Shown in pieces: positions 4,496-52,646 of a stretch of DNA of 64,000 nucleotides (its first letter is position 1; the number at the start of each line of letters is the position of its first letter). This DNA comes from Nitrospira defluvii (GTDB taxonomy: Bacteria; Nitrospirota; Nitrospiria; Nitrospirales; Nitrospiraceae), in contig FP929003.1 of the NCBI GenBank assembly GCA_000196815.1, forward strand, positions 248,001-312,000. The letters are read 5' to 3'. Made by a program: the position numbers and the translations under genes. The notes under the pieces are model-generated. The model was not told the origin of the DNA. It was given only the letters and a program-made list of their open reading frames with translations, and searched no databases.

Positions 4496-4544
4496 AATGG
4501 TGGGCGATACTGGTATCGAACCAGTGGCCTCTTCCGTGTGAAGG
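4496..4544. repeat. att direct repeat, distal copy of element 1
   Basis: These 49 bp are identical to 10977-11025. They correspond on the minus strand to the 3' half of tRNA-Val, from the anticodon loop through the CCA, but the 5' half of a tRNA is not present here. This marks the chromosomal junction distal to the integrase. Confidence 0.92.
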
Positions 4545-4888
4545 CGAAAAGCTAGATTTTTACAAGGTTCGTTGTTGCAATGGTTTCCCTACAAAAGCGC
4601 TACAAATCAAGCATTTAAGAGCTTTCTATTGCATCGATTGGTTACAGGAGATTTTGAGGTTTTGGATAGTTTCTGACACAAAAATGACCACAGTGAAATG
4701 GCCTCGGACAACATGACCGTTAAGCGGCAGGCGACGCCGAAAGGAGTGGTTTGGCGGGGACGGTCACAATCGAGCCCTCAGAGAATGAAGCGACAAACGA
4801 TAGGCGAGCGGTTCGCAAAATCGCGAGCGCTGACTACAGAGCCACAGCACCATGGTATACTGCCGCAGATACACTGGATGCGTTGCCG
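4545..4888. other. Non-coding left end of element 1
   Basis: Between the att repeat and the antitoxin gene I see no convincing gene. The stretch contains the putative arm-type repeat at 4674-4695. Short open frames from 4698 and 4751 run into the antitoxin but have no ribosome-binding site or family resemblance in their first part. Confidence 0.6.
4674..4695. repeat. Putative arm-type integrase site (distal arm), element 1
   Basis: This 22-bp sequence is exactly repeated at 10914-10935, in the same orientation, close to the other att copy. The preceding 26 bp are also weakly similar in both places. On the minus strand it reads with the pattern TGTGnTnnnTTTTTGTG, which resembles the sites at 48282-48304 and 52446-52468 in element 2. 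Function as an integrase arm site is inferred. Confidence 0.5.
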
Positions 4889-5143
4889 ATGAAAGCCGTG
4901 AAGTACACCAAAGAAGGCGTGGTGATTCCCTCCTCCTGGATGAAGGGGTGGGGTAAAGCTGTGGTGGCACACCGGGACTCCGATGTGCTGATTTTGGAGT
5001 CTCCGGCCAGAGCAGCCAGTCGGAAGAAGCTGGCTCGCATGGTCGGCAAGGTGCGCAGTGCGGCACGCGAGCTAAGCATCACTCCTGAACAAATTGCCGC
5101 TGAGGTGGCAGCGGTTCGGCGCGAGCGTGCGCGTCGTTCTTGA
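4889..5143 (+). CDS. Probable antitoxin paired with PIN toxin
   Basis: The 84-residue protein starts at ATG 4889; an in-frame upstream extension to 4751 looks spurious. The N-terminal part (KYTKEGVVIPSSWMKGWGK) resembles the short beta-rich start of AbrB/MazE-like antitoxins. The C-terminus is basic, helical and disordered-looking, as expected for the toxin-binding tail. Its end overlaps the PIN-domain gene by 17 bp, the usual antitoxin-toxin coupling. The exact antitoxin family is uncertain. In such pairs the antitoxin neutralises the nuclease and represses the shared promoter. Confidence 0.7.
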   Translation: MKAVKYTKEGVVIPSSWMKGWGKAVVAHRDSDVLILESPARAASRKKLARMVGKVRSAARELSITPEQIAAEVAAVRRERARRS

Positions 5144-5546
5144 TACCAATATCTTCGTGTCCGGTCTGCTGTCCGCCGCAGGGCCTCCTGCACGGATCAT
5201 CCAAGCCGTCCTGCAGCGTCGCCTCATCCCCGTCATGAGCCCTGAGACCTTCGCGGAACTGGAAGCCGTTCTGCGGCGGCCAAAACTCCAGCGAGCGTTT
5301 ACTCGGGCCGGGGTGGATATCACGAGCTTTCTGGCGACCATCCAAGCTGAAGTGCAGTTCGTTGATTCCCATCCCACGAATACTCCGTTGCGTGATGCGC
5401 AGGATCGACCGTTCCTCGATCTCATGGCGACCACACCCCCGCCCCAATATTTCGTGACCGGGGATAAGGATTTCGAGGCGTCACACTACAGCGGAGTGCC
5501 GGTCATTTCAGCCGCTGAGTTTGCCCGCCTGCTCGCGCACCGGTAG
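5127..5546 (+). CDS. PIN-domain toxin (VapC-like, COG1569 type)
   Basis: The 139-residue protein begins at GTG 5127 with MRVVLDTNIFVSGLL, a typical PIN-domain start. Acidic residues expected for metal binding are visible: Asp in VLDTN, Glu in the AELEAVL helix, Asp in RPFLDLM and the GDKDF motif. PIN toxins are Mg-dependent ribonucleases that cleave tRNA, rRNA or mRNA. An in-frame upstream TTG at 5094 would add unneeded residues inside the antitoxin gene. As cargo in element 1 the pair may stabilise the element or act against phage. Confidence 0.85.
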   Translation: MRVVLDTNIFVSGLLSAAGPPARIIQAVLQRRLIPVMSPETFAELEAVLRRPKLQRAFTRAGVDITSFLATIQAEVQFVDSHPTNTPLRDAQDRPFLDLMATTPPPQYFVTGDKDFEASHYSGVPVISAAEFARLLAHR

Positions 5547-5835
5547 GTGATCCATACGGTTGTACACCGAACGAAGCAACGCACACGGACATTTGATTGG
5601 GCCAGACGTTGAGGTATTTGCGCCATGATAGATCTATGTGCGCGAGAGAAATGGCACATTCGTGGCGATCGCGAGTTTGTCCGGAACGGTGCGGTCGAAA
5701 TCGCACGTTTCAGGCGATTCAGAAACGAAAGGACATCTAATTCTCCAAGACACTGTGCATTGACGCTGAAGAAATAGTTTGGGCCAGCAAGAGAGCCTTG
5801 GCTCACTCAGGACAAGAATAGTTGGGACTCTATAC

Positions 5836-6554
5836 CTACCAACCTCTAGATTTCCGGGTCGATTCAAGTTTTTCCAGAGACTCCTTAAGGATGGGCTGCG
5901 GGTCTGGAGAAATTTGATTGATGTTGATGATCCCTGGGAGACATATACTTTGTCTGCCATGGGTCTCTTGGCAGAGTTTATTGATCCGGGCATCAACAAC
6001 GTCAGTTACGTGCTTTCGCTCATGTTGCTTTAAGTAACTGAGCACCGGATATATGACATCGGCAATATCCTGCCCATAGGCAATAGCTTCTTCGCGTGTG
6101 GGGAATTTGCCTCTATGGATCACCTTGTTTCTGAATGTGATCTGTTTCTGGGGCAGAGCCGGCGGCGGGATTCTGTGCTCGAGTGTGTAAGTCATGGTGT
6201 AGGCGCCTAATACTCTTTCCGATTGTGCCACCAGCCGATTGAGAGATTCTTCAAAGCGGTCCGAAGCAACTTCTTTCTTCCCTCCAATTACTCGAAGGTA
6301 AAATTCGCAGAAGGCCTCAAAGGCACCAGTGAAGGAGGCAACTGCTTCTCTGTAGTAACCATCGAGGACTGCGTACGCTGCCGATTGATACAGCATCTCA
6401 AACCGCTCCTCTCGGAGATAGGCTGTCGTGCTGTGACCGTTTGGACACTTGTAGCTGTAAACCCCGGATTCTTGAACCTCCCAAGACTCACAGATCCAGC
6501 TGGCGGAGGCGTTGTTGGCCTATAGCACTCTAAACACACAACCGGTACGCGCAT
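5836..6554 (-). pseudogene. Zinc-ribbon/HEPN-like protein, interrupted by a frameshift
   Basis: The intact part (from ATG 6396, 186 aa) contains RNKVIH (R89-x4-H94), the RX4-6H motif of HEPN ribonuclease-type domains, in a helical context. Reading upstream in the same frame without a stop to 6519 adds a segment ending in YKCPNGH that looks like half of a zinc ribbon, but there is no start codon. A second frame from ATG 6554 begins MRVPVVCLECYRPTTPPPA, which supplies the matching CxxC half. The two pieces join if one base shift occurred around 6500-6520. I infer a broken or mis-sequenced gene. The role may be RNA cleavage in defence, but this is not established. Confidence 0.55.
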
Positions 6555-6907
6555 GGTTCGCCATCCTTCATTGTTATCTTAACCCTACCTCTGTGATGCT
6601 GAATTCTACGAAGCTTTGGACAACTCGATGCACGCTCCTTGAATTGACGACCTTGTCGCTCAAATCTCTTTCTTGCCTATCTGGCTGGACGAACCGTCTT
6701 CTTAAGTTCTCTGATCCGAACCATATTCACGCGGGTTGTCCGTAGTTGGCTTTCCAGTGATGAAACTTTTCTTCTTTTCCGTACTCCTGCCTTTGATGAG
6801 GTGTGAAAAGCATCATCCTCCAATTTGTGCTGAATGAGGTGTGAGTTGGGCAGAGGTTACGAATCTGTTCCCTCCGCTTCGAATCCAACTGAACCTGAGG
6901 TGCCTTA
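6555..6907. other. No gene recognised between HEPN-like and DUF2513 genes
   Basis: This AT-richer stretch holds only short open frames without family resemblance. An 11-bp direct repeat (ATGAGGTGTGA at 6796 and 6834) is present and may be chance. It probably contains the promoter or remnants of decayed cargo. Confidence 0.5.
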
Positions 6908-7270
6908 CTAGAGCCCTAATGCAGATGACGCGAGAGAGGCCAAAAGCTTCATGATTAACTCAATTGTTACACTGCCTGCTTTCTCCTTTGTTAGCTCCAT
7001 GGCTTTCGCCCAAAGCTCCTCATTTCGTGCGGCGTCTGCAAACTCATGACCAGCCCAGGTAAGACTCGTGGCTATAGCTTCCGGACTCTTGGCACCATGC
7101 GTGGTAACATCGGCCCCTCGAATAAGTCCTGCTTCCAGCATGACATGCAAGTGGTATCCGATTTCTTCTTGAGTGTACCCATCAATTGCTAGGGTCCTTG
7201 GAGCAAAGCCGGATGGGCTAGCCTCTATTGCCAAAACAAGATGTCGGACTAGGCTCATATCTCGTCTCAC
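6908..7270 (-). CDS. DUF2513 family protein
   Basis: The 120-residue protein is best started at GTG 7270, preceded by GAGG five bases upstream, giving the family-like N-terminus MRRDMSLVRHLVLAIE. The body has the DUF2513 pattern: a winged-helix-like segment (YTQEEIGYHLHVMLEAGLI), then SLTWAGHEFADAARNEELW. DUF2513 proteins are common on prophages and islands and their molecular role is unknown. A second upstream GTG at 7276 is possible. The gene lies between the HEPN-like and TIR genes, all on the minus strand, as part of the accessory cargo. Confidence 0.82.
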   Translation of the reverse strand: MRRDMSLVRHLVLAIEASPSGFAPRTLAIDGYTQEEIGYHLHVMLEAGLIRGADVTTHGAKSPEAIATSLTWAGHEFADAARNEELWAKAMELTKEKAGSVTIELIMKLLASLASSALGL

Positions 7271-7395
7271 GGCCACCTCACTTGCCTAATTCCAATAGGC
7301 TATTGGTTTTGATGTCGACTTGGAAAGCGATAGAGCACATGTGAGCCTCGCAACGTCCGAAGACATGACTTGGCCACCAGTTATGCGTTCTACCC

Positions 7396-7974
7396 TCACG
7401 AAAGAAGAGCACGCTTCAGACGCTCGTACCATTCCGAAGTATCAGTACGAAGCCAATGAATATCTCGAAGACTACGCGGCGGCTGACATTCGTCGATAAT
7501 GATAGGAATGATATAGCGGGAGCCCTCGGGCCTAAGTTGATGTTGATCCAGTGCGTACTTGAGCTCTCGCTGGAAGTAGCCAGTCTTGGAAACACTAGTT
7601 GCGGATAGAAACACTAGGACAAAATCAGAACTTTCGATTGCCTCGTCGATCTTTCGTTTCCAGTCATCACCTGGCAGCAACTCCTTCTCATCAAACCACG
7701 CAAGTACCCCATCCTGAAGCAAGCGATGAGCTAGGTCTCTAATAAAACGTGCGTCCTCCTTTGCGTGCGAAAGAAACACAAGCTTAACAGGAAGCGTTAC
7801 GGTGCCATTGACAATCTGAAGGTCTGAATACATCGTCCAATCCGTCTGATCTGGGAGCTGAACATGAACTGTCACTGTGCCTGGACGAGAACCAAGACTC
7901 ACGCGTAGTAGTGTCCCCTGGGGCACTTCTTTACGTCCTTCAGTAATAATATTTTTCAAATCGAGCTCAGGCAT
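7396..7974 (-). CDS. TIR-domain protein, candidate defence effector
   Basis: Residues about 63-190 of this 192-residue protein form a TIR domain: KLVFLSHAKEDARFIRDLAH, WFDEKELLPGDDWKRKIDEA, FVLVFLSATSVSK and YFQREL. Glu137 in the last motif is at the position of the catalytic glutamate of NADase TIRs. The N-terminal 60 residues look beta-rich and are unassigned. Bacterial TIR proteins often degrade NAD or make cyclic ADP-ribose signals during phage defence. Whether this one is active alone or needs a sensor is unknown. There is no clear ribosome-binding site before ATG 7974, so the start is tentative. Confidence 0.85.
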   Translation of the reverse strand: MPELDLKNIITEGRKEVPQGTLLRVSLGSRPGTVTVHVQLPDQTDWTMYSDLQIVNGTVTLPVKLVFLSHAKEDARFIRDLAHRLLQDGVLAWFDEKELLPGDDWKRKIDEAIESSDFVLVFLSATSVSKTGYFQRELKYALDQHQLRPEGSRYIIPIIIDECQPPRSLRDIHWLRTDTSEWYERLKRALLS

Positions 7975-8257
7975 TTCTAGCCATGTTAATCGACTGTCTA
8001 CTCAATCGACTCTCGGTATTTGGCCAAGCCAAAAGCTGAACGACGAGGCCGGAAAAATTAGCACTCCCTCACCAATCCTGCAATGCTGTCGCTACAAGAC
8101 GGCTTATTCGTTTCAAACTTTTTTTCGCGCACGGGTCAAAAACGAGCTGATTTTGGGTCGCTCCCTGTCCCGCCTTCGAACGATGCGCACAATTGCCGCT
8201 CTGAGCGCATGAAAGCGCACATACGCCTCCTTATGCTCACTTCCTTTTGCGTCTGAG

Positions 8258-8307
8258 CTGTCACAAACTTTGTCCTCTGCTGTCCCCTCGTGACCCCTAG
8301 TGACCTC
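8258..8307. repeat. Five phased 10-bp iteron-like repeats, element 1
   Basis: On the plus strand these read CTGTCACAAA, CTTTGTCCTC, TGCTGTCCCC, TCGTGACCCC and TAGTGACCTC. The complementary strand aligns unit by unit with 50908-50957. They are possible binding sites for Rep or a repressor. Confidence 0.55.
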
Positions 8308-8486
8308 TTCCGGGGCCTTGGCTTCGGTCCGGTGATTCGCCTAGGGTGAGACGAACGGAAACAGGGCTCACCAAGAGGTGCAGATGTCTGAGTTGGAGCG
8401 CGTCACACAGCAACACCATCGTCCGTGGGCGGGAGGCAAAGCCGGTCCGCGCCGCATGCCGATAGGCTGCGGGGCGGAGCGGAATG

Positions 8487-8511
8487 GCCCCCGTCTTGGT
8501 AACACGGGGGC
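8487..8511. repeat. Stem-loop upstream of rep, candidate nick site, element 1
   Basis: GCCCCCGT pairs with ACGGGGGC around a 9-base loop CTTGGTAAC, 39 bp before the rep start. Stem and loop are identical in element 2 (50705-50729). The CTTG-N-TA loop is reminiscent of nick sites of some rolling-circle replicons (CTTG/ATA type). Confidence 0.55.
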
Positions 8512-8550
8512 GCTACCTACAGCGCTCATTACAGGAGTTCGATAGGTTCC

Positions 8551-9557
8551 ATGGATTCTGGCTTCACCCTGACGATTGATTGGTTGGCTTTTACGGTCCT
8601 GGCCAGCAATCCCCAGGAGACCATGAAGGTGCTCGGCGGAGATTGGAGTAAGGCCAAAGGCGGCTTTCGAGGCTATCCCTTGTCCTGGATGCGAGTTGAC
8701 GGCCTGCGTGGGGTGGGCAAATTGGGCACGAATGCCCCTCGGCGTCCGAATGAAATCCATGTGGATTTGTCGGGCGGCCTGGCGTCCGCCCTGACACGGG
8801 ATCAAATTCGCACTCTCCTTAGGTGGGTGCATGCTCAACAGGGGCATGTCACGCGCATTGATTGCGCCCTTGATGACCGAGCAGGCACGGTGCCGGTGGC
8901 GACCATCAGAGAAGCGGTCTCGGCAGGCCAGTGCGTCACGAGGGCGGCTCAAGTCCGCATATCGTCTCCAACCTCACGCATGGGACCGGAGCGACCACGG
9001 GCGAGACCATGTACTTCGGCAGTCCGCAGAGTCAGACGTTACTCCGCATCTATGACAAGCGGTTGGAACTCCAGAGCAAAGGACAAGAGCACTATCAGGA
9101 CTACGGGACACGATGGGAATTAGAGCTCAAGAAGGATCGGGCCGAACAATGTGCCCGAGCATTGGCCACGTTAGACGAAGTCGATTGGAAGGAGCTGGTG
9201 GTCGGCTTGCTGAGATCGTATGTGGACTTCCAGCAGATCCCGAAGGATGCCGAGGATGAAGAACGGTACCGGGCTCCAGTCTTGGAGTGGTACGCCCTCC
9301 TGAGGGAGGGATTTGAGAAGGGGTGATTGGCCCAGGAGAAGCAGGTGCAGACCCTGCAGAACGTGAAACGATGGGTGAGTGACACCCTGACGCCGATGTT
9401 GGCGGTCATTTGTGCCACCCCTGGAGGGGAAGAATGGCTATTACAGGAAATTGTCAGGGGCATTGCTCGGTGGAAAGACCGACACCGCAATTTGCTCAAA
9501 CAACCACCCACTCGGTTTCACCGGTCTGCCGGCGGTCACGCGGGCAGCCCATGCTAG
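8551..9557 (+). pseudogene. Rolling-circle replication initiation factor (Rep_trans-like), inactivated
   Basis: The sequence aligns end to end with the intact 335-aa Rep of element 2. It starts at ATG 8551 (MDSGFTLTIDWLAFTVLASN). One G is missing at about 8957-8958 (GTCCGCAT here, GTCCGGCAT in element 2), shifting the frame. Later a CGA codon has become TGA (9324-9326). Reading resumes in frame to 9557. The family motifs IDCALDD and RIYDKRLELQ are present in the pieces. Two independent lesions indicate a decayed gene rather than a single sequencing error. The element may depend on a related Rep in trans. Confidence 0.85.
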
Positions 9558-9564
9558 GGGGACT

Positions 9565-9586
9565 GGGGGTGTCGATAGACTCCCCC
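9565..9586. repeat. Conserved stem-loop between rep and xis, element 1
   Basis: GGGGG-T-GTC, loop GATA, GAC-T-CCCCC forms an 8-pair stem with one T-T mismatch. The equivalent structure in element 2 (49629-49650) has the same stem and a GCAA loop on the gene strand. It may attenuate transcription between rep and the excisionase gene or serve as a second origin element. Confidence 0.5.
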
Positions 9587-9599
9587 GGTGTATCTGCAT

Positions 9600-9914
9600 A
9601 TGCTTACCGTCAAAGAGCTCTCGGCTTGGCTCAATATCAAGCAATCCACGCTCTACCTCTGGGTTTCCAAGAATAAGATTCCTTGCCGTCGCATACACGG
9701 CCTCGTCCGCTTTGAACCTGAGGCGATCCAGGTCTGGCTGAACAGCTTTTCTTCTACGTCGAATATGAGGCCTCACCGGGTGTCCCGGCGTAAAGCTGGT
9801 GACGTAGACCACCTCATTGAAGCGGCTAAACGTGCCGTCTATACTTCCCGCCACGGGGAAACCAGACCAACAGCGAGCCCTCTTGGAAAGGAGAACAACG
9901 ATGGGGCTCGTTAA
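9600..9914 (+). CDS. Helix-turn-helix excisionase-like DNA-binding protein
   Basis: The 104-residue protein begins with a MerR/excisionase-type winged helix (MLTVKELSAWLNIKQSTLYL, then VSKNKIPCRRIHGLVRFEPE), the family used for recombination directionality and for small regulators. A GTG at 9588 would add four residues; neither start has a clear ribosome-binding site. The C-terminal half is basic and unassigned. The last 14 bp overlap the integrase start, implying coupled translation. A homologous gene occupies the same place in element 2. Excisionase function is inferred from fold and position. Confidence 0.78.
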   Translation: MLTVKELSAWLNIKQSTLYLWVSKNKIPCRRIHGLVRFEPEAIQVWLNSFSSTSNMRPHRVSRRKAGDVDHLIEAAKRAVYTSRHGETRPTASPLGKENNDGAR

Positions 9915-11022
9915 GCGAGGGAATATTTGGTGGATGAATATTGTGTTTCAAGGGAAACGGATTCGCCGTTCGACAGGGTCATCGAATCGAGCCTTGGCTG
10001 ACGCCATCATGGCGAAGGTGAAGGTGCAATTGATCGAGGGGCAGTATTTTGAGCGGGCGGAGGAACAGTCTCGAACCTTCGCGGAATTGATGGATCGTTT
10101 TGAGCGGGAGCACCTCGTGAAATTGGCCAGCCGACAAACCGGACAAGCCTTCCTGAAGCGTTTCCGTGCCTTCTTCGGAGACCGGACGTTAGCGGAGATT
10201 ACCCCCAAGCTGATCGTGGAGTATAAAAGTCGACGGTCCGCCACTGGGGTGAAACCGGCCTCGATCAATCGGGAGCTGACCTGTCTCAGAAAGGCCTTCA
10301 GCCTGGCGAAGCGGGAGTGGGAATGGTGCCGAGACAATCCCGTCAGTCGAGTGTCTCTCGAAAAGGGGGCGACGAAACGAGACCGGTGGCTGATGGAGGA
10401 TGAAGAGGCGCGATTGCTTGATGCCTGTCCGTCCTGGTTACGCGAGCTCGTGGTGTTCGCGCTGCATAGCGGGATGCGATTGGGCGAGATCCTGTCACTG
10501 ACCTGGAACGGCGTGGATCTGTTCCGAAGAACTGCGACCGTGTTTGAGTCGAAAAACGAGGAGCGGCGGACAGTGCCATTGAATCAGACAGTAATGGCGC
10601 TCCTGACGGAGAAGGCCAAAGTGCGGCACATCAAAACCGCGCTGGTCTTTCCCAGTCTCGCCGGTACACGGTTAGATCCCAACCATCTGCGACGGGCGTT
10701 GCGGCCTGCGATGGCCAAAGCGGGGATTGTGAATTGCCATTTTCATGACCTCCGCCACACCTTTGCGACGCGGCTGGTCCAGGCGGGAGTGGATCTCTAC
10801 AAGGTGCAACGGCTCCTCGGGCACAAGTCGCCGCTCATGACGCAACGTTATGCGCATCATTACCCGGAAAGCCTGCGAGATGGAGTGGAGATTTTGGACC
10901 GACGGTCACACCGTGACACAAAAATGACCACAGTGTTGCGTGTGTCGGAGAGTGTTGTCGTGCAAGTGATTGAAAAAATGGTGGGCGATACTGGTATCGA
11001 ACCAGTGGCCTCTTCCGTGTGA
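9901..11022 (+). CDS. int: Tyrosine integrase of element 1
   Basis: The 373-residue protein starts at ATG 9901, preceded by AAAGGAG. An in-frame upstream extension to 9817 lies inside the xis gene. It has an N-terminal AP2-like/arm-binding region (GLVKRGNIWWMNIVFQGKRI), a core-binding SAM-like domain and the catalytic domain: Arg in HSGMRLGEIL, HDLRHTFATRL, and LGHKSPLMTQRYAHH with the nucleophile Tyr. The final residues (VGDTGIEPVASSV) are encoded inside the att core, where the gene runs antiparallel into tRNA-Val. It should catalyse site-specific integration and excision at the tRNA. Confidence 0.95.
   Translation: MGLVKRGNIWWMNIVFQGKRIRRSTGSSNRALADAIMAKVKVQLIEGQYFERAEEQSRTFAELMDRFEREHLVKLASRQTGQAFLKRFRAFFGDRTLAEITPKLIVEYKSRRSATGVKPASINRELTCLRKAFSLAKREWEWCRDNPVSRVSLEKGATKRDRWLMEDEEARLLDACPSWLRELVVFALHSGMRLGEILSLTWNGVDLFRRTATVFESKNEERRTVPLNQTVMALLTEKAKVRHIKTALVFPSLAGTRLDPNHLRRALRPAMAKAGIVNCHFHDLRHTFATRLVQAGVDLYKVQRLLGHKSPLMTQRYAHHYPESLRDGVEILDRRSHRDTKMTTVLRVSESVVVQVIEKMVGDTGIEPVASSV
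10914..10935. repeat. Putative arm-type integrase site (integrase-proximal arm), element 1
   Basis: This is an exact 22-bp match to 4674-4695, located within the 3' end of the integrase gene and 41 bp from the att core. The same arrangement, with a related sequence, occurs in element 2. Confidence 0.5.
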
Positions 11023-11025
11023 AGG
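10977..11025. repeat. att direct repeat, tRNA-proximal copy of element 1
   Basis: This 49-bp copy is contiguous with the 5' half of tRNA-Val, restoring an intact tRNA gene. It includes the integrase stop codon at 11020-11022. Confidence 0.93.
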
Positions 11026-11053
11026 AAGCGCTCTCCCCCTGAGCTAATCGCCC
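10982..11053 (-). tRNA. tRNA-Val, anticodon CAC
   Basis: A full cloverleaf can be drawn: acceptor GGGCGAT/ATCGCCC, D-stem GCTC/GAGC, anticodon stem CTTCC/GGAAG with loop TTCACAC (anticodon CAC, valine GTG codons), T-stem ACTGG/CCAGT with loop TTCGATA. The discriminator is A, and CCA is encoded at 10979-10981. A run of T residues follows immediately on the minus strand and lies within the element, so integration supplies a terminator-like tail. Confidence 0.95.
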
Positions 11054-48162: not shown

Positions 48163-48234
48163 GCGGGAATAGCTCAGTGGTAGAGCATCGCCTTGCCAAG
48201 GCGAGGGTCGCGGGTTCAAATCCCGTTTCCCGCT
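48163..48234 (+). tRNA. tRNA-Gly, anticodon GCC
   Basis: A full cloverleaf can be drawn: acceptor GCGGGAA/TTCCCGC, D-stem AGCTC-type arm, anticodon stem TCGCC/GGCGA with loop TTGCCAA (anticodon GCC), T-stem GCGGG/CCCGT with loop TTCAAAT. The discriminator is T, and CCA is encoded at 48235-48237. It is the integration site of element 2. Confidence 0.96.
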
Positions 48235-48240
48235 CCAATT
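48193..48240. repeat. att direct repeat, tRNA-proximal copy of element 2
   Basis: This 48-bp core runs from the anticodon loop of tRNA-Gly to three bases beyond the encoded CCA. It is identical to 52599-52646. Confidence 0.95.
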
Positions 48241-48243
48241 TTC

Positions 48244-49317
48244 TCAAGCACTTGCACAACACTCTCCGGCAGTAGCAGTCTCCCTGTGATAGTTTTGTGA
48301 TATCTCAGGGTGAATGCGTTCCAGAATTAACACTCCCTCTCTCAGACTCTCCGGTGAGTGATGCGCGTAGCGCTGTGTCATCGCGGCGCTCTTGTGCCCC
48401 AGTAATCGTTGCACCTTGTACAGATCCACGCCTGCTTGCGCGAGACGTGTGGCAAATGTATGCCGCAAATCGTGAAAGCGCACGTCGATCAACTGGGCTT
48501 TCTTCGCCGCCAGTCTGAATGATCGCGTGAGATTGCGAGCATCGACTAATGTCGAAGCCGCGCTGCTAAACACGAACGATCCCTTTGCTTGCATGGTCGC
48601 TTTTCTGCGAAGCAATTCGACCAGGCGGCCATTCAAGGGGACGGTCCGCTTTTCGCCGTTCTTGCTTCGCATGACCACCAAGACCTGTCGGATGAGATCA
48701 ACAGCTTGCCACTGCAAGTTGAGAATCTCGCCCCGTCGCATGCCGGTGTTCAACGCAAAGACAATCATGTCTTGAAGCCAGGGTGCCGAATTTGCCAGGA
48801 GCCGTCCTTCTTCTTCGGAAGAGATCCAACGGTCTCGCTCATTGCGCACTGTTTCCATGCAGACTCGCTGCATGGGATTGTCCCGGCACCATTCCCATTC
48901 TCGAATGGCGACATTGAAGCCGTGGCGGACCAAGCCTAACTCTTTGTTGACTGTTGCCGGCTTGGTCGTCTCGCGTCTCTTCGCTTTATAGGCCGCGAGG
49001 AGCTTCGGTGTGATCTCCGCGAGAGTCAGTGGACCAAATGCGTCTCGCAGATGTGCGAGGCATTGCTCGTCCCGCTGTCGGCTTGCCGGGGCTTTCGTGA
49101 TTGATCGCTCTTTGAGATATCGATCCATCATGTCGTTGAACGTGTGGTCTTTAGCTTCCAACGTGTCAAAGAATCGGCCCTCGACAATCTTCACCCGGAT
49201 TTTTCCCAGGATAGCCTCAGCGAGGCGCCTGTCTGTTGTTCCTGTGGAACGTCGTACCTGCTGGCCCTGATGAATGAACGTCATCCACCACACTTTATTG
49301 CGTCTAAATAGCCCCAT
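48244..49317 (-). CDS. int: Tyrosine integrase of element 2
   Basis: The 357-residue protein starts at ATG 49317, preceded by AAGGAGG; a longer frame to 49473 lies inside the xis gene. Domains match the element 1 integrase: an N-terminal arm-binding region (GLFRRNKVWWMTFIHQGQQV), the core-binding domain, and catalytic residues in NTGMRRGEIL, HDLRHTFATRL and LGHKSAAMTQRYAHH. The two integrases are clear homologues but diverged, consistent with different tRNA targets. It ends 3 bp outside the att core. Confidence 0.95.
   Translation of the reverse strand: MGLFRRNKVWWMTFIHQGQQVRRSTGTTDRRLAEAILGKIRVKIVEGRFFDTLEAKDHTFNDMMDRYLKERSITKAPASRQRDEQCLAHLRDAFGPLTLAEITPKLLAAYKAKRRETTKPATVNKELGLVRHGFNVAIREWEWCRDNPMQRVCMETVRNERDRWISSEEEGRLLANSAPWLQDMIVFALNTGMRRGEILNLQWQAVDLIRQVLVVMRSKNGEKRTVPLNGRLVELLRRKATMQAKGSFVFSSAASTLVDARNLTRSFRLAAKKAQLIDVRFHDLRHTFATRLAQAGVDLYKVQRLLGHKSAAMTQRYAHHSPESLREGVLILERIHPEISQNYHRETATAGECCASA
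48282..48304. repeat. Putative arm-type integrase site (integrase-proximal arm), element 2
   Basis: CCCTGTGATAGTTTTGTGAT and three further bases match 52446-52468 at 18 of 23 positions in the same orientation. Both contain two TGTGnTA boxes spaced by one helical turn. A related TGTG-TTTTTGTG pattern occupies the equivalent places in element 1. Confidence 0.48.
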
Positions 49318-49615
49318 CTGCATCCTCCTTACGGATGAGGCTTGACTGAATGGTTTCCCCGTGCCGGGAAGTATAGACCTCGCGTTTTGAGGCTTCAATG
49401 AGCTGGTCAAGGTCACGGGTGTCGTGGCGAGTCGGCAGTATGAATGGCTTGCCATGACTGGTCTCAAAGCCATTCAGCCACGCCTGGATGGCCTCAGCTT
49501 CAAAGCGGACCAGTCCATGTATGCGACGGCAAGGAATTTTGTTCTGTGAGGCCCAGAGGTAGAGTGTGGATTCTTTGATCTTGAGCCAAGCCGAGAGTTC
49601 TTTGACGGTAAGCAT
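49304..49615 (-). CDS. Helix-turn-helix excisionase-like DNA-binding protein
   Basis: The 103-residue protein is homologous to the element 1 gene at 9600-9914. The winged-helix core reads MLTVKELSAWLKIKESTLYL and NKIPCRRIHGLVRFEAEAIQ, then a basic tail. A GTG at 49627 would add four residues. It overlaps the integrase start by 14 bp, as in element 1. A role in excision or in repression of rep/int is inferred. Confidence 0.78.
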   Translation of the reverse strand: MLTVKELSAWLKIKESTLYLWASQNKIPCRRIHGLVRFEAEAIQAWLNGFETSHGKPFILPTRHDTRDLDQLIEASKREVYTSRHGETIQSSLIRKEDADGAI

Positions 49616-49628
49616 ATGCAGATACACC

Positions 49629-49650
49629 GGGGGAGTCTTGCGACACCCCC
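49629..49650. repeat. Conserved stem-loop between rep and xis, element 2
   Basis: On the gene strand GGGGG-T-GTC, loop GCAA, GAC-T-CCCCC forms the same stem as at 9565-9586 with a different tetraloop. Stem conservation with loop change supports a structural role. Confidence 0.5.
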
Positions 49651-49657
49651 AGTCCCC

Positions 49658-50665
49658 CTAGTATGGGCTGCCCGCGTGACCGCCGGCAGACCGGTGAAAC
49701 CGATTGGGTGGTTGCTTGAGCAAATTGCGGTGTCGGTCTTTCCACCGAGCAATGCCCCTGACAATTTCCTGTAGTAGCCATTCTTCCCCTCCAGGGGTGG
49801 CACAAATGACCGCCAACATCGGCGTCAGGGTGTCACTCACCCATCGTTTCACATTCTGCAGGGTCTGCACCTGCTGCTCCTGGGCCAATCGCCCTTTCTG
49901 AAATCCCACCGTCAGAAGGGCGTACCACTCCAACACGGGAGCCCGGTATCGTTCTTCATCCTCGGCATCCTTCGGAATCTGCCGGAAGTCCACATAGGAC
50001 CGCAGCAAGCCGATGACCAACTCCTTCCAATCGGCTTCGTCTAAGGTGGCCAATGCTCGGGCACACTGTTCGGCCCGATCCTTCTTGAACTCTAATTCCC
50101 ATCGCGTCCCGTAGTCCTGATAGTGCTCTTGTCCTTTGCTCTGGAGTTCGAGGCGTTTGTCATAAATTCGCAGCAAGGTCTGACTCTGCGGACTTCCGAA
50201 GTACATCGTCTCGCCGGTCGTCGCTCCCGTCCCATGCGTCAAGTTGGACACGATATGCCGGACCTGAGCCGCCCGAGTCACACACTGGCCGGCAGCGACG
50301 GCCTCTCGAATCGTGCTGACCGGGACCGATCCGGCTCGGTCATCCAGGGCGCAGTCGATCCTCGTGACGTGTCCCTGTTGTTTATGCACCCACTGGAGCA
50401 GGGTGCGGATTTGATCCAGTGTCAGGGCGGACGCGAGGCCGCCCGACAGATCCACATGGATTTCATTCGGACGACGAGGGGCATTGGTGCCCAATTTGCC
50501 GACCCCGCGCAGCCCGTCAGTTCTCATCCACGATAAGGGATAGCCTCGGAAGCCGCCTCTGGCCTTGCTCCAGTCCCCGCCTAAGACCCGCATGGTCTCT
50601 TGGGGGTTACTGGCCAAGACGGTAAAGGCCAGCCAGTCAATCGTAAGGGTAAAACTGGAATCCAT
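49658..50665 (-). CDS. Rolling-circle replication initiation factor (Rep_trans-like)
   Basis: The 335-residue protein is the intact counterpart of the broken gene in element 1. It opens MDSSFTLTIDWLAFTVLASN. Characteristic parts of replication-initiation-factor proteins are IDCALDD, YFGSPQSQTLLRIYDKRLEL with the probable catalytic Tyr, and RWELEFKKDRAEQCA. Such proteins nick a double-strand origin and remain covalently attached. Similar folds also act as MobT-type relaxases, so a role in mobilisation is possible. AGGAG lies 13 bases before ATG 50665, so the spacing is unusually long. A stem-loop and phased repeats lie just upstream. Confidence 0.85.
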   Translation of the reverse strand: MDSSFTLTIDWLAFTVLASNPQETMRVLGGDWSKARGGFRGYPLSWMRTDGLRGVGKLGTNAPRRPNEIHVDLSGGLASALTLDQIRTLLQWVHKQQGHVTRIDCALDDRAGSVPVSTIREAVAAGQCVTRAAQVRHIVSNLTHGTGATTGETMYFGSPQSQTLLRIYDKRLELQSKGQEHYQDYGTRWELEFKKDRAEQCARALATLDEADWKELVIGLLRSYVDFRQIPKDAEDEERYRAPVLEWYALLTVGFQKGRLAQEQQVQTLQNVKRWVSDTLTPMLAVICATPGGEEWLLQEIVRGIARWKDRHRNLLKQPPNRFHRSAGGHAGSPY

Positions 50666-50704
50666 GGACGCTATCGAACTCCTGTAATGAGCACTGTGGG
50701 TAGC

Positions 50705-50729
50705 GCCCCCGTGTTACCAAGACGGGGGC
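50705..50729. repeat. Stem-loop upstream of rep, candidate nick site, element 2
   Basis: An 8-bp perfect stem with loop CTTGGTAAC (on the rep strand), 39 bp upstream of the rep start, is identical to 8487-8511 in element 1. Confidence 0.55.
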
Positions 50730-50907
50730 CATTCCGCTCCGCCCCGCAGCCTATCGGCATGCGGCGCGGACCGGCTTTGTCTCCCAGTGATGGACGACGG
50801 AGTTGCCTTGAACAGGGCTCCATTGGTGGTGTCCTTGCATCCCTGTGACCGTTCCGTTGCACACTCCGACCTTATGCAAACGCCACCACGCAGTAAAGAA
50901 CCCTCGA

Positions 50908-50957
50908 GGGGACAGCAGGGGGCACGAGGGGACAATAGAGGACAGATTTTGGGACAG
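50908..50957. repeat. Five phased 10-bp iteron-like repeats, element 2
   Basis: The units keep a consensus near GGGGACAnnA, one per helical turn. Their distance from rep (242 bp) equals that in element 1 (243 bp, 8258-8307). Individual units differ between elements while the period is kept. Confidence 0.55.
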
Positions 50958-51292
50958 CTCAGACGCAAAAGGAAGTGAGCATAAAGATGCGTATGTGCGC
51001 TTTGCTGCGCTGGTGGCGGCAATTGTGCGCATCGTTTGCAGGAGGGCCAAGGAGCGAACAGAAATCAGCTTGGTTTTGACTGGTGCGCGAAAAAAAAGTT
51101 TGGCAGGCATTCCTTGGGTTATGGGCTAGGATCAGAGCAGCCGACAAGAGTGGAACCGGATCACAGAGGTAGGGCAGAGCGGTGTCCTCACACTTTTCGA
51201 TGACCGTGGCTGGTGCGTACATCGGGAAATGCCGGGAAGACGAGGCTCGCCTGAGTGACATCGCACGAGGCAATAAGCGAAAGGACGGCGGC

Positions 51293-52063
51293 ATGAGGTC
51301 ATACAAGATCATGGGAGCACTACTGGTGCTGTGGGTAGGCTTCGGCACGCAAGTCTTCGCAGGACAGATGGAGCCGAGCGAATTTGCTCAGGGCGTTGAG
51401 TATACGTTGCTGATGAGCAAGAACGACAAGGTTTGCAAGCATATGCTTACGATGTTCAATCAGGATCTCGTCAAGTTTGGAACTGAAAAATACGACGAAC
51501 ATGACGAGTTTCGCTTGATTGGTTGGAAAAAAGAAACAGTCACCCGTATGGACGGAGACCGGGAAGTAATGGATCTTGTTGAGGTTGCGCAATTCGATAT
51601 CGACAATGATGGGAAGATGAACTTAGTTTTCCGACGAACAGGTCCCGTGAGCGGATACGATAGAGATACTCTCTATATCTTCCCGAGCCTAGGACCAAGC
51701 GAGAAACGATGGACACTTATGGAAATTACCCATAGCCCCGGCAGGATTTCTCACGACGGCTACTTCTTGCTCTCTCAGAGTCGTGCTGGAAACAAGAAAA
51801 GTAGCACTATTCCATCAATGGCAAGTATCTCTCGCTTGGAGCCCTTTGTGCTTGAAGGGACGGTCTATGTTGCCCTGCGCCCATTGTATGAACTCGCCAG
51901 CGGAACAGATCCAGTAACAGAGTTTTCGAAAGTGCTGGTGATCACGAAGTATCGCGGAGGGAAGTACGGTGGTGGTCCAGATCCGGATGAAAAAGAATCG
52001 GGCAAGAGGGACGATGTGTGCTATTTGAAAGTACGAACAGAGCCATTTTCTGGAGGTCAGTGA
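51293..52063 (+). CDS. Exported protein of unknown function, element 2 cargo
   Basis: The 256-residue protein starts at ATG 51293 with a signal peptide (MRSYKIMGALLVLWVGFGTQ, then VFAG). The longer open frame to 51182 would bury this signal. The mature part is alpha/beta and contains FDIDNDGKMNLVF, resembling a calcium-binding FG-GAP/VCBS-type loop, and later strands (LEPFVLEGTVYVALRPLYEL). No family is recognised. It is the main cargo gene of element 2 and has AT-richer codon use than the chromosome. Confidence 0.7.
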   Translation: MRSYKIMGALLVLWVGFGTQVFAGQMEPSEFAQGVEYTLLMSKNDKVCKHMLTMFNQDLVKFGTEKYDEHDEFRLIGWKKETVTRMDGDREVMDLVEVAQFDIDNDGKMNLVFRRTGPVSGYDRDTLYIFPSLGPSEKRWTLMEITHSPGRISHDGYFLLSQSRAGNKKSSTIPSMASISRLEPFVLEGTVYVALRPLYELASGTDPVTEFSKVLVITKYRGGKYGGGPDPDEKESGKRDDVCYLKVRTEPFSGGQ

Positions 52064-52125
52064 TGATAACCGGATGGCATACGACTTATTTGCAGGGGTT
52101 CTACAGGGCAGAAAGAGATTATTAG

Positions 52126-52419
52126 TTGAAGGTTGCTGAGGCGAATTTATTGCGGCTAAGGACTAGCACCAGACAGCTCAAGCCCCACGCGGACGGTAAA
52201 CTTTCAAATGAAAGCGTGGCTATTGGATATGGTTATGATCTCTTGGATCGTGGAAAAACCGTTCAACAGATCAAGGATGATCTGAATGCCGTAGGTGTGA
52301 CACTCACCCGACATGATGAAACCGTGGCTCACGGATTACCGAAATGGTTCGACTACCATCACGAAGGCCTTTTTAGTCCAACCGGTAAAGCCAAATGCCT
52401 TTACGTAAGTCACTGCTGA
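52126..52419 (+). pseudogene. Lysozyme-like fragment, element 2 cargo
   Basis: The 97-residue frame (TTG start) contains LKPHADGKLSNESVAIGYGY and DLLDRGKTVQQIKDDLNAVG. This resembles the IGYGYDL region of phage-type lysozymes/endolysins, which normally follows a catalytic Glu-containing helix. That N-terminal helix with its Glu is not recognisable and the C-terminal lobe is missing. I infer a remnant rather than an active enzyme. It lies 60 bp after the exported-protein gene. Confidence 0.45.
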
Positions 52420-52445
52420 TCAGCTTGACTAGTTAGAGCCACTTT

Positions 52446-52468
52446 CCCTGTGCTAGATTTGTGCTAGA
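52446..52468. repeat. Putative arm-type integrase site (distal arm), element 2
   Basis: CCCTGTGCTAGATTTGTGCT and three further bases resemble 48282-48304 in the same orientation, with two TGTGCTA boxes. It lies about 130 bp inside the distal att core, the same distance as in element 1. Confidence 0.48.
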
Positions 52469-52598
52469 AGTTGTCAGAACCGCTCAATTCCATCATAGCC
52501 TATCGACTCAATAGACAGCGCCTAAGCTGAGCCACTATCAGGGAAAATCGGGGAAACCACGGCTCAATCAAGCCCTTACGAAATTACTCTTTTCAGAA

Positions 52599-52646
52599 TT
52601 GCCAAGGCGAGGGTCGCGGGTTCAAATCCCGTTTCCCGCTCCAATT
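52599..52646. repeat. att direct repeat, distal copy of element 2
   Basis: These 48 bp are identical to 48193-48240. They contain the 3' half of tRNA-Gly without the 5' half, so this is not a second tRNA gene. Confidence 0.95.

Follow-up and report, generated by a model that had tools for sequence, protein, structure and literature searches.

What kind of mobile DNA is inserted in the tRNA genes of Nitrospira defluvii, and by what means does it spread? The question is raised by two small elements in a stretch of 64,000 nucleotides, here called the window (positions 248001-312000 of a single 4,317,083-bp contig), of which element 1 spans 4496-11025 in a tRNA-Val(cac) gene and element 2 spans 48193-52646 in a tRNA-Gly(gcc) gene. 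A preliminary description regarded them as a family of compact elements which target tRNA genes and have a rolling-circle type replication protein (Rep), a swappable integrase and swappable distal cargo, a view that is supported throughout the genus and by empty sites in relatives. That description, however, missed that the origin, the control DNA and the Rep family are common to filamentous prophages of the genus, and it is this sharing that leads us to regard the elements as phage satellites rather than as free-standing elements. With a probability of roughly 0.6, they represent a lineage of integrase-bearing, cargo-carrying integrated satellites of filamentous phages in Nitrospira.

The comparison rests on 141 rep loci, many places being represented twice via duplicate records, which were labelled by gene order as satellites (integrase gene soon after rep, no zot near) or prophages. 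A script assigned 68 satellites, 42 prophages, 21 truncated loci and 10 others; three loci with satellite order (L062, L128 and L131) have Zot 6.26 kb from rep, taken as belonging to a neighbouring prophage, and counting them as satellites gives 71 satellites and 39 prophages. In both window elements the genes run, toward the tRNA gene, from cargo through control region, origin, rep and xis-like gene to integrase. The origin, directly upstream of rep (8436-8523 on the plus strand in element 1, 50693-50780 on the minus strand in element 2), consists of a long G+C-rich hairpin followed by a second hairpin, CCCCC...GGTAA...GGGGG. A covariance model, R1, built from 18 satellites only, with the element 2 copy among them, recognizes the two origins at E 8.6e-21 and 8.7e-21, respectively, and it also matches upstream of rep in 24 of 24 prophage loci (E 1.3e-8 to 6.8e-4); elsewhere in 443 kb it gave two weak matches, one at E 0.43 and one at 0.99 on the other strand of an origin. 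The first hairpin folds better than shuffled sequences (z under -2) in 47/47 satellites, 21/22 prophages and 24/24 others, each distinct sequence being counted once and only among loci having the second hairpin, and in the window the DNA folds of 8440-8545 and 50685-50790 reach z values of -4.9 and -5.7. The motif of the second hairpin precedes rep in 62/69 satellite, 30/38 prophage and 26/29 other rep loci, that is, in 118 loci, as against 119 occurrences in the entire loci (4.4 Mb, both strands). Across the genus the model yields 82 matches in 25 of 29 genomes, with 150 candidates scored per genome, and no Rfam family was found at the origin of element 2. CTXphi, according to an excerpt of PMC4439123, is nicked within the loop of its second origin hairpin, the cut falling between G and T.

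Upstream of the origin lie two blocks of control DNA, a GCGCAC-type block (approximately 8181-8246, plus strand, in element 1 and 50970-51035, minus strand, in element 2) and an iteron block with the repeat TGTCCCCT (approximately 8260-8315, plus strand, and 50900-50955, minus strand). By BLAST, both blocks are present in 21 of 37 window-type loci and neither in the remaining 16, while among 20 prophages the iterons occur in 12, the GCGCAC block in 4, both in none and neither in 4. This doubled control region suggests that the satellites may answer to two kinds of helper. Profiles of the control DNA made from the elements and searched at E 0.1 in 25 other rep loci (469 kb) matched upstream of rep only. 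By eye, a small ribbon-helix-helix-like open reading frame (ORF) is seen upstream of rep in L061, L062 and L071, in the place of the iteron region.

The Zot prophages of Nitrospira carry a second Rep group, about 50% identical to the Reps of the elements. Behind their rep come a zinc-ribbon-like ORF, a protein of 422 aa at the position of pIII, an Ace-like protein and Zot; xis and a tRNA-gene integrase often follow, and in some prophages a serine recombinase; a second attachment (att) copy was found for one of 20 prophage loci only (L101, 47 nt). Rep matches phrog_453 in satellite and prophage alike (one of each compared), Zot of L096 matches phrog_197 (E 4.6e-48) and the Ace-like protein of L095 matches phrog_306 (E 4e-9), each in the one prophage compared. 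By tblastn, a relative of the 422-aa protein of L096 precedes Zot in 39/39 prophage loci, and neither this protein nor Zot of L096 has a match between rep and int of the satellite loci. The window elements are not themselves Inoviridae prophages: tblastn found no Zot inside them, and the N. defluvii genome has none. Common descent of the replicon in satellites and filamentous prophages is established, and the occurrence of close relatives of this replicon in filamentous prophages of the same genus is new.

Because the islands have a replication origin in common with filamentous viruses, they probably travel by borrowing those viruses, and we infer that a helper packages them. In the proposed cycle, entry or induction of a filamentous phage would be followed by excision of the satellite. 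Rep would then nick the GGTAA loop of the second hairpin, yielding single-stranded circles, and these would leave the cell in filaments which the helper builds with its coat and assembly proteins. On reaching a new cell, a circle would be converted to double-stranded DNA and integrate into its tRNA gene, and the distal cargo, often defence-like, may pay for the stay in the host.

Several observations weigh against this interpretation. A shared origin is evidence for common descent of the replicon and no proof of packaging, and neither a circular form nor a packaging signal has been demonstrated. Two of the three rep copies in the N. defluvii genome are broken, this genome has no Zot, and among the 29 genomes of the genus the presence of satellites and that of Zot, which occurs in 16, are not associated (Fisher p = 1; 13 genomes with both, 10 with satellite only, one satellite in this tally being a fragment, 3 with Zot only and 3 with neither). 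Moreover, the satellites' lack of Zot is partly a matter of definition, since they were labelled by gene order; the 422-aa protein that occupies the pIII position matches no PHROG, and 13 of the 39 loci with the element gene order have no repeat of at least 34 nt in the stretch examined. In addition, the satellites do not form one clade in a quick tree of 111 distinct Reps, where 11 label changes are counted, with truncated rows taken as another label, and at least 4 of them are forced by well supported branches. Neither label forms one clade as a whole: next to the main prophage clade (34 rows, namely 25 prophage, 9 other and 0 satellite; Shimodaira-Hasegawa-like approximate likelihood ratio, SH-aLRT, 97) and the window's own clade (51 rows, namely 42 satellite, 9 truncated and 0 prophage; SH-aLRT 100), there are 9 satellite rows and 10 rows including 7 prophages outside both, as well as some long branches.

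Among other explanations, the one that survives best, unlikely as it appears, is that the elements are self-contained integrative replicons which spread by natural uptake or some other rare route, and whose phage-like origin reflects ancestry only. The missing association with Zot, the 10 of 29 genomes that hold the family without Zot and the deep clade formed by the window's Reps all speak for it, but the two control-block types of prophages, kept side by side in 21/37 loci, would have no evident use without contact with phages. It is less probable still that they are integrative and mobilisable elements, in which Rep would be a MOBT-type relaxase, the hairpins an origin of transfer (oriT) and a conjugative machine the agent of transfer. 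Rep_trans is also the family of MOBT relaxases, according to an excerpt of PMC11389934 and the title of PMC7563843, and the elements do combine a protein of this family with an integrase; the best PDB match of Rep is a rolling-circle Rep, 4cij, and 172 of the 200 plasmid records that match Rep are typed as mobilisable, at 26-29% identity among the 15 matches listed. However, the coupling protein PF02534, the sole family searched for, is absent from N. defluvii and present in 6/29 genomes of the genus, as against 23/29 with window-type rep, and Rep, origin and control DNA are shared with Zot prophages. No mobilisation protein was noticed by eye beside rep either, except for the small ribbon-helix-helix-like ORF of some loci, although a missing resident conjugative machine counts for no more than the missing resident Zot in N. 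defluvii. Finally, the elements might be filamentous prophages that decayed where they stand through loss of structural genes. Their having origin, Rep family, xis and type of integrase in common with prophages would agree with this, as would the two broken reps out of three in N. defluvii, but it is highly improbable given that the window's Rep clade holds no prophage, its 42 satellite rows all having int directly after rep, and that the gene order recurs in many species, with long matching att repeats at 26/39 loci.

The interpretation as satellites of filamentous phages can be set beside known systems. RS1 has a phage-type replication module and is packaged by its helper. Like the elements described here, RS1 of Vibrio cholerae is a satellite tied to a filamentous helper, CTXphi (excerpts of PMC11389934 and PMC4439123); unlike them, it exploits Xer recombination of the host and has an antirepressor, RstC (excerpt of PMC4439123). 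The Nitrospira elements instead encode a tyrosine integrase of their own, target tRNA genes and carry large variable cargo, and no antirepressor was identified in them, no dedicated search having been made. Phage-inducible chromosomal islands (PICIs), P4-like satellites and phage-inducible chromosomal minimalist islands (PICMIs) are likewise small integrated elements that use phages for their spread, and P4-like satellites contain hotspots of defence genes, as far as the excerpted accounts go. The helpers of these three groups are tailed phages, whose satellites are known carriers of defence genes, whereas the replication module of the elements here matches filamentous phages. The best reading is that the elements are RS1-like in principle and PICI-like in build. 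To our knowledge, only few satellites of filamentous phages are known. One of them, reportedly an autonomous inovirus satellite plasmid to judge by the title of Schmid et al. 2024 (Appl Environ Microbiol), differs from the elements here, which are integrated in tRNA genes. MOBT-type elements of Firmicutes, according to excerpted accounts, also combine a Rep_trans-family protein with an integrase, but they differ from the present family, whose replicon is shared with Zot prophages of the genus and whose host N. defluvii lacks PF02534.

Relatives among phage records are distant: 12 of 50,697 records match Rep, all under 60% identity, and those named Dulem and bajarodino virus, small phages from animal samples, match at 22-28% identity with a best E of 6e-21. 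A Rep scan of viral contigs likewise found two distant relatives, with 25 and 30% identity. Among the matches listed in the open literature, subscription papers and preprints being outside the scope, there were neither integrated cargo-bearing satellites of filamentous phages nor a report of such elements in Nitrospira; in a word search, the main text of an inovirus survey (PMC6813254) contained neither 'satellite' nor 'Nitrospira'. If the satellite interpretation is true, filamentous phages, too, drive island-borne gene flow in a key nitrifying genus. The family provides a concrete origin and Rep with which such gene flow can be tested, and the origin model together with the rep-xis-int cassette constitutes a search tool for further elements of this kind.

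The elements are site-specific integrative elements of tRNA genes, with att repeats at the tRNA, an adjoining integrase and empty sites in relatives. The direct repeats at both tRNA genes, noted in the preliminary description, are exact: 49 nt in element 1 (distal copy 4496-4544; tRNA-side copy 10977-11025, overlapping the tRNA-Val gene at 10979-11053, minus strand) and 48 nt in element 2 (tRNA-side copy 48193-48240, overlapping the tRNA-Gly gene at 48163-48237, plus strand; distal copy 52599-52646). Inside these ends, element 1 has a 22-nt repeat pair (4674-4695 on the distal and 10914-10935 on the tRNA side, both plus strand), and the corresponding places of element 2, located from offsets, are 48285-48299 on the tRNA side and 52449-52463 on the distal side (both minus strand); in both elements they are likely integrase arm sites. 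A short inner repeat pair at a near-fixed distance from both ends recurs in 23 of the 26 elements delimited by an att repeat of 34-56 nt, and such pairs are probably integrase arm sites.

Of 100 related genomes 38 carry Rep, as do 9 of 36 genera, most named matches belonging to Nitrospira or its family. Within the genus a window-type rep, at least 80% identical, is present in 23 of the 29 genomes, in one as a fragment. The 26 delimited elements, two of them (L082 and L085) from other genera of the family, are 4.1-10.4 kb long and reside in tRNA-Val, -Gly, -Arg, -Thr and -Glu genes, three targets not being named. The genes flanking the tRNA-Val site lie on one contig in 19/29 genomes; the gap between them measures 907-972 bp in 9 genomes, and in the other 10 it is 2.3-10.0 kb. 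Five of these 10 hold rep of the family, including N. defluvii with its gap of 7427 bp (946 + 6481). At the tRNA-Gly site, where 17 genomes have both genes on one contig, 8 gaps measure 475-1165 bp and 6 measure 3.9-7.7 kb, three of the latter with rep of the family, and in 3 genomes the genes are at least 19 kb apart; the gap is 5001 bp (595 + 4406) in N. defluvii and 596 bp in G023, its closest relative by flanking gene. When viral contigs were scanned with an attP-like pattern representing the commonest type of arm, no circular form of this family was found; the scan yielded three contigs without rep, whose integrases are distant (24-32% identity); the tRNA-Val arm type was sought in the fetched loci only. 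An attP-like junction at 5575-5835 of L134, made up of an integrase tail, an att and then another element, is no proof of a circle; it is a probable tandem remnant, in which the tail of an old integrase is joined via att to another element.

Between the two window elements, DNA identity is 84.4% across 1762 nt, from the control region into xis (8114-9864 in element 1), and in the integrase it is reduced to patches (72% over 271 nt and 76% over 80 nt). The preliminary description gave a collinear backbone of about 2.9 kb; similarity of the DNA covers about 1.75 kb plus patches. Since the flanks, about 3 kb on each side, share nothing at E 1e-3, a segmental duplication is rejected, and the cassette does occur with other cargo and att sites in further genomes. 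In the 22 delimited elements that have window-type rep, not counting element 1, the median pairwise identity of Rep is 94% regardless of whether the tRNA is the same or different; integrase identity has a median of 94% in 37 pairs with the same tRNA and 57% in 173 pairs with different tRNAs, two rows with unnamed tRNA being left out. It follows that integrase modules were swapped around a constant replicon.

Cargo is variable. ORFs were called mechanically in the 26 elements, so that some are surely not genes; 100 of 151 ORFs of at least 70 aa have no relative in another element, 47 of 63 of at least 150 aa are found in one element only, and 20 of the 26 elements have an unshared ORF of the latter size. 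The largest shared cluster, a PIN protein, occurs in 6 elements. When 68 of the 93 cargo ORFs of at least 110 aa were compared with Pfam and PADLOC, the first 25 families listed, several of which can match one protein, included PIN (4), TIR (2), TonB_C (2) and one instance each of AbiTii, Fic, radical SAM, NYN, GGDEF, an SBF transporter and others from Pfam, as well as TIR/ThsB, SoFic, AbiTii, Dsr1 and viperin models from PADLOC. By eye, L082 resembles an arsenic cluster. TonB C-terminal domains are encoded in the cargo of L069 (11097-12431) and L073 (8038-8808). TolA, which is similar, is a coreceptor of filamentous phages in other bacteria, and such cargo might block phage entry.

The genes of element 1, beginning at the distal end, are a 130-aa ORF (4751-5143) directly upstream of a gene for a PIN_3 toxin-like protein (5094-5546, plus strand; PF13470, E 3.2e-18), and on the minus strand genes for a 186-aa protein with no Pfam family above cut-off (5836-6396), a DUF2513 protein (6908-7276; PF10711, E 2.3e-28) and a TIR-domain protein (7396-7974; PF13676, E 1.3e-27). 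Past the origin, the plus strand encodes the Rep_trans protein (8551-9557), an xis-like HTH_17 protein (9588-9914; PF12728, E 9.7e-10) and the tyrosine integrase (9817-11022; PF00589, E 2.4e-40). The cargo of element 2 is unrelated, as previously noted, and includes a 293-aa protein without Pfam match (51182-52063, plus strand); its minus strand encodes an intact Rep of 335 aa (49658-50665; PF02486, E 1.6e-33; phrog_453, E 5.9e-21; 4cij, E 3e-18), an xis-like HTH_17 protein (49304-49627; PF12728, E 2e-10; phrog_66 excisionase, E 5.1e-7) and the tyrosine integrase (48244-49473; PF00589, E 7.2e-37). A rep gene is common to both, as described before, but that of element 1 is broken, first by a frameshift near codon 136 and then by a later stop.

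Instead of the two copies first reported, Rep and DNA searches of the genome found three rep places, and the origin search added a fourth element without rep. The third copy lies at 1228150-1234595 in tRNA-Arg(cct), with a 44-nt repeat and a rep broken within its first third. The fourth, at about 3548466-3553176 (2467-7177 of L010), lies in tRNA-Lys(ttt) with 45-nt repeats, between which there are an origin-like site (E 4.4e-5) and related xis and int genes and no rep match was found. Its integrase shares 87% identity with the integrases that two Nitrospira prophages have at this tRNA, compared with 63% for that of element 2, and its cargo includes a restriction enzyme of DpnII/MboI type (PF18742, E 3.6e-59). 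A protein weakly resembling deoxyribosyltransferases, below the Pfam cut-off, is also present. Tentatively, and with the tRNA-Lys element as the one clear case of the last, three tiers may be envisaged: full phages; satellites with Rep, integrase and cargo; and rep-less origin-bearing elements borrowing Rep. On this arrangement the variable cargo of the satellites would be defence or metal resistance, the many satellites with controls of two phage types side by side could answer either helper, and the system, if true, would be the filamentous-phage counterpart of PICIs.

Ten origin matches without a nearby rep were picked by eye (L201, L202, L051, L198, L205, L199, L200, L203, L204 and L010). 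L201 and L202 are contig ends, probably of prophages, L051 is a satellite origin split by an insert resembling an insertion sequence, and no related integrase was found in L198. By eye, in L095, L156 and L192 rep or a prophage has a large serine recombinase behind it, next to purine-like genes, and relatives of the family can also use serine recombinases. L199, L200, L203 and L205, all from Nitrospira, represent another type of element, in which a similar two-hairpin origin with a CAGTAAC loop is followed by cargo, a MerR-like gene and a gene for a conserved 362-aa protein. This protein of L205 is 88-94% identical to those of L199, L200 and L203 and has no Pfam match; its motifs RVDFCFD, LRVYDK and WRIEW resemble Rep_trans by eye, and in L199 its gene is followed by a serine recombinase-like ORF.

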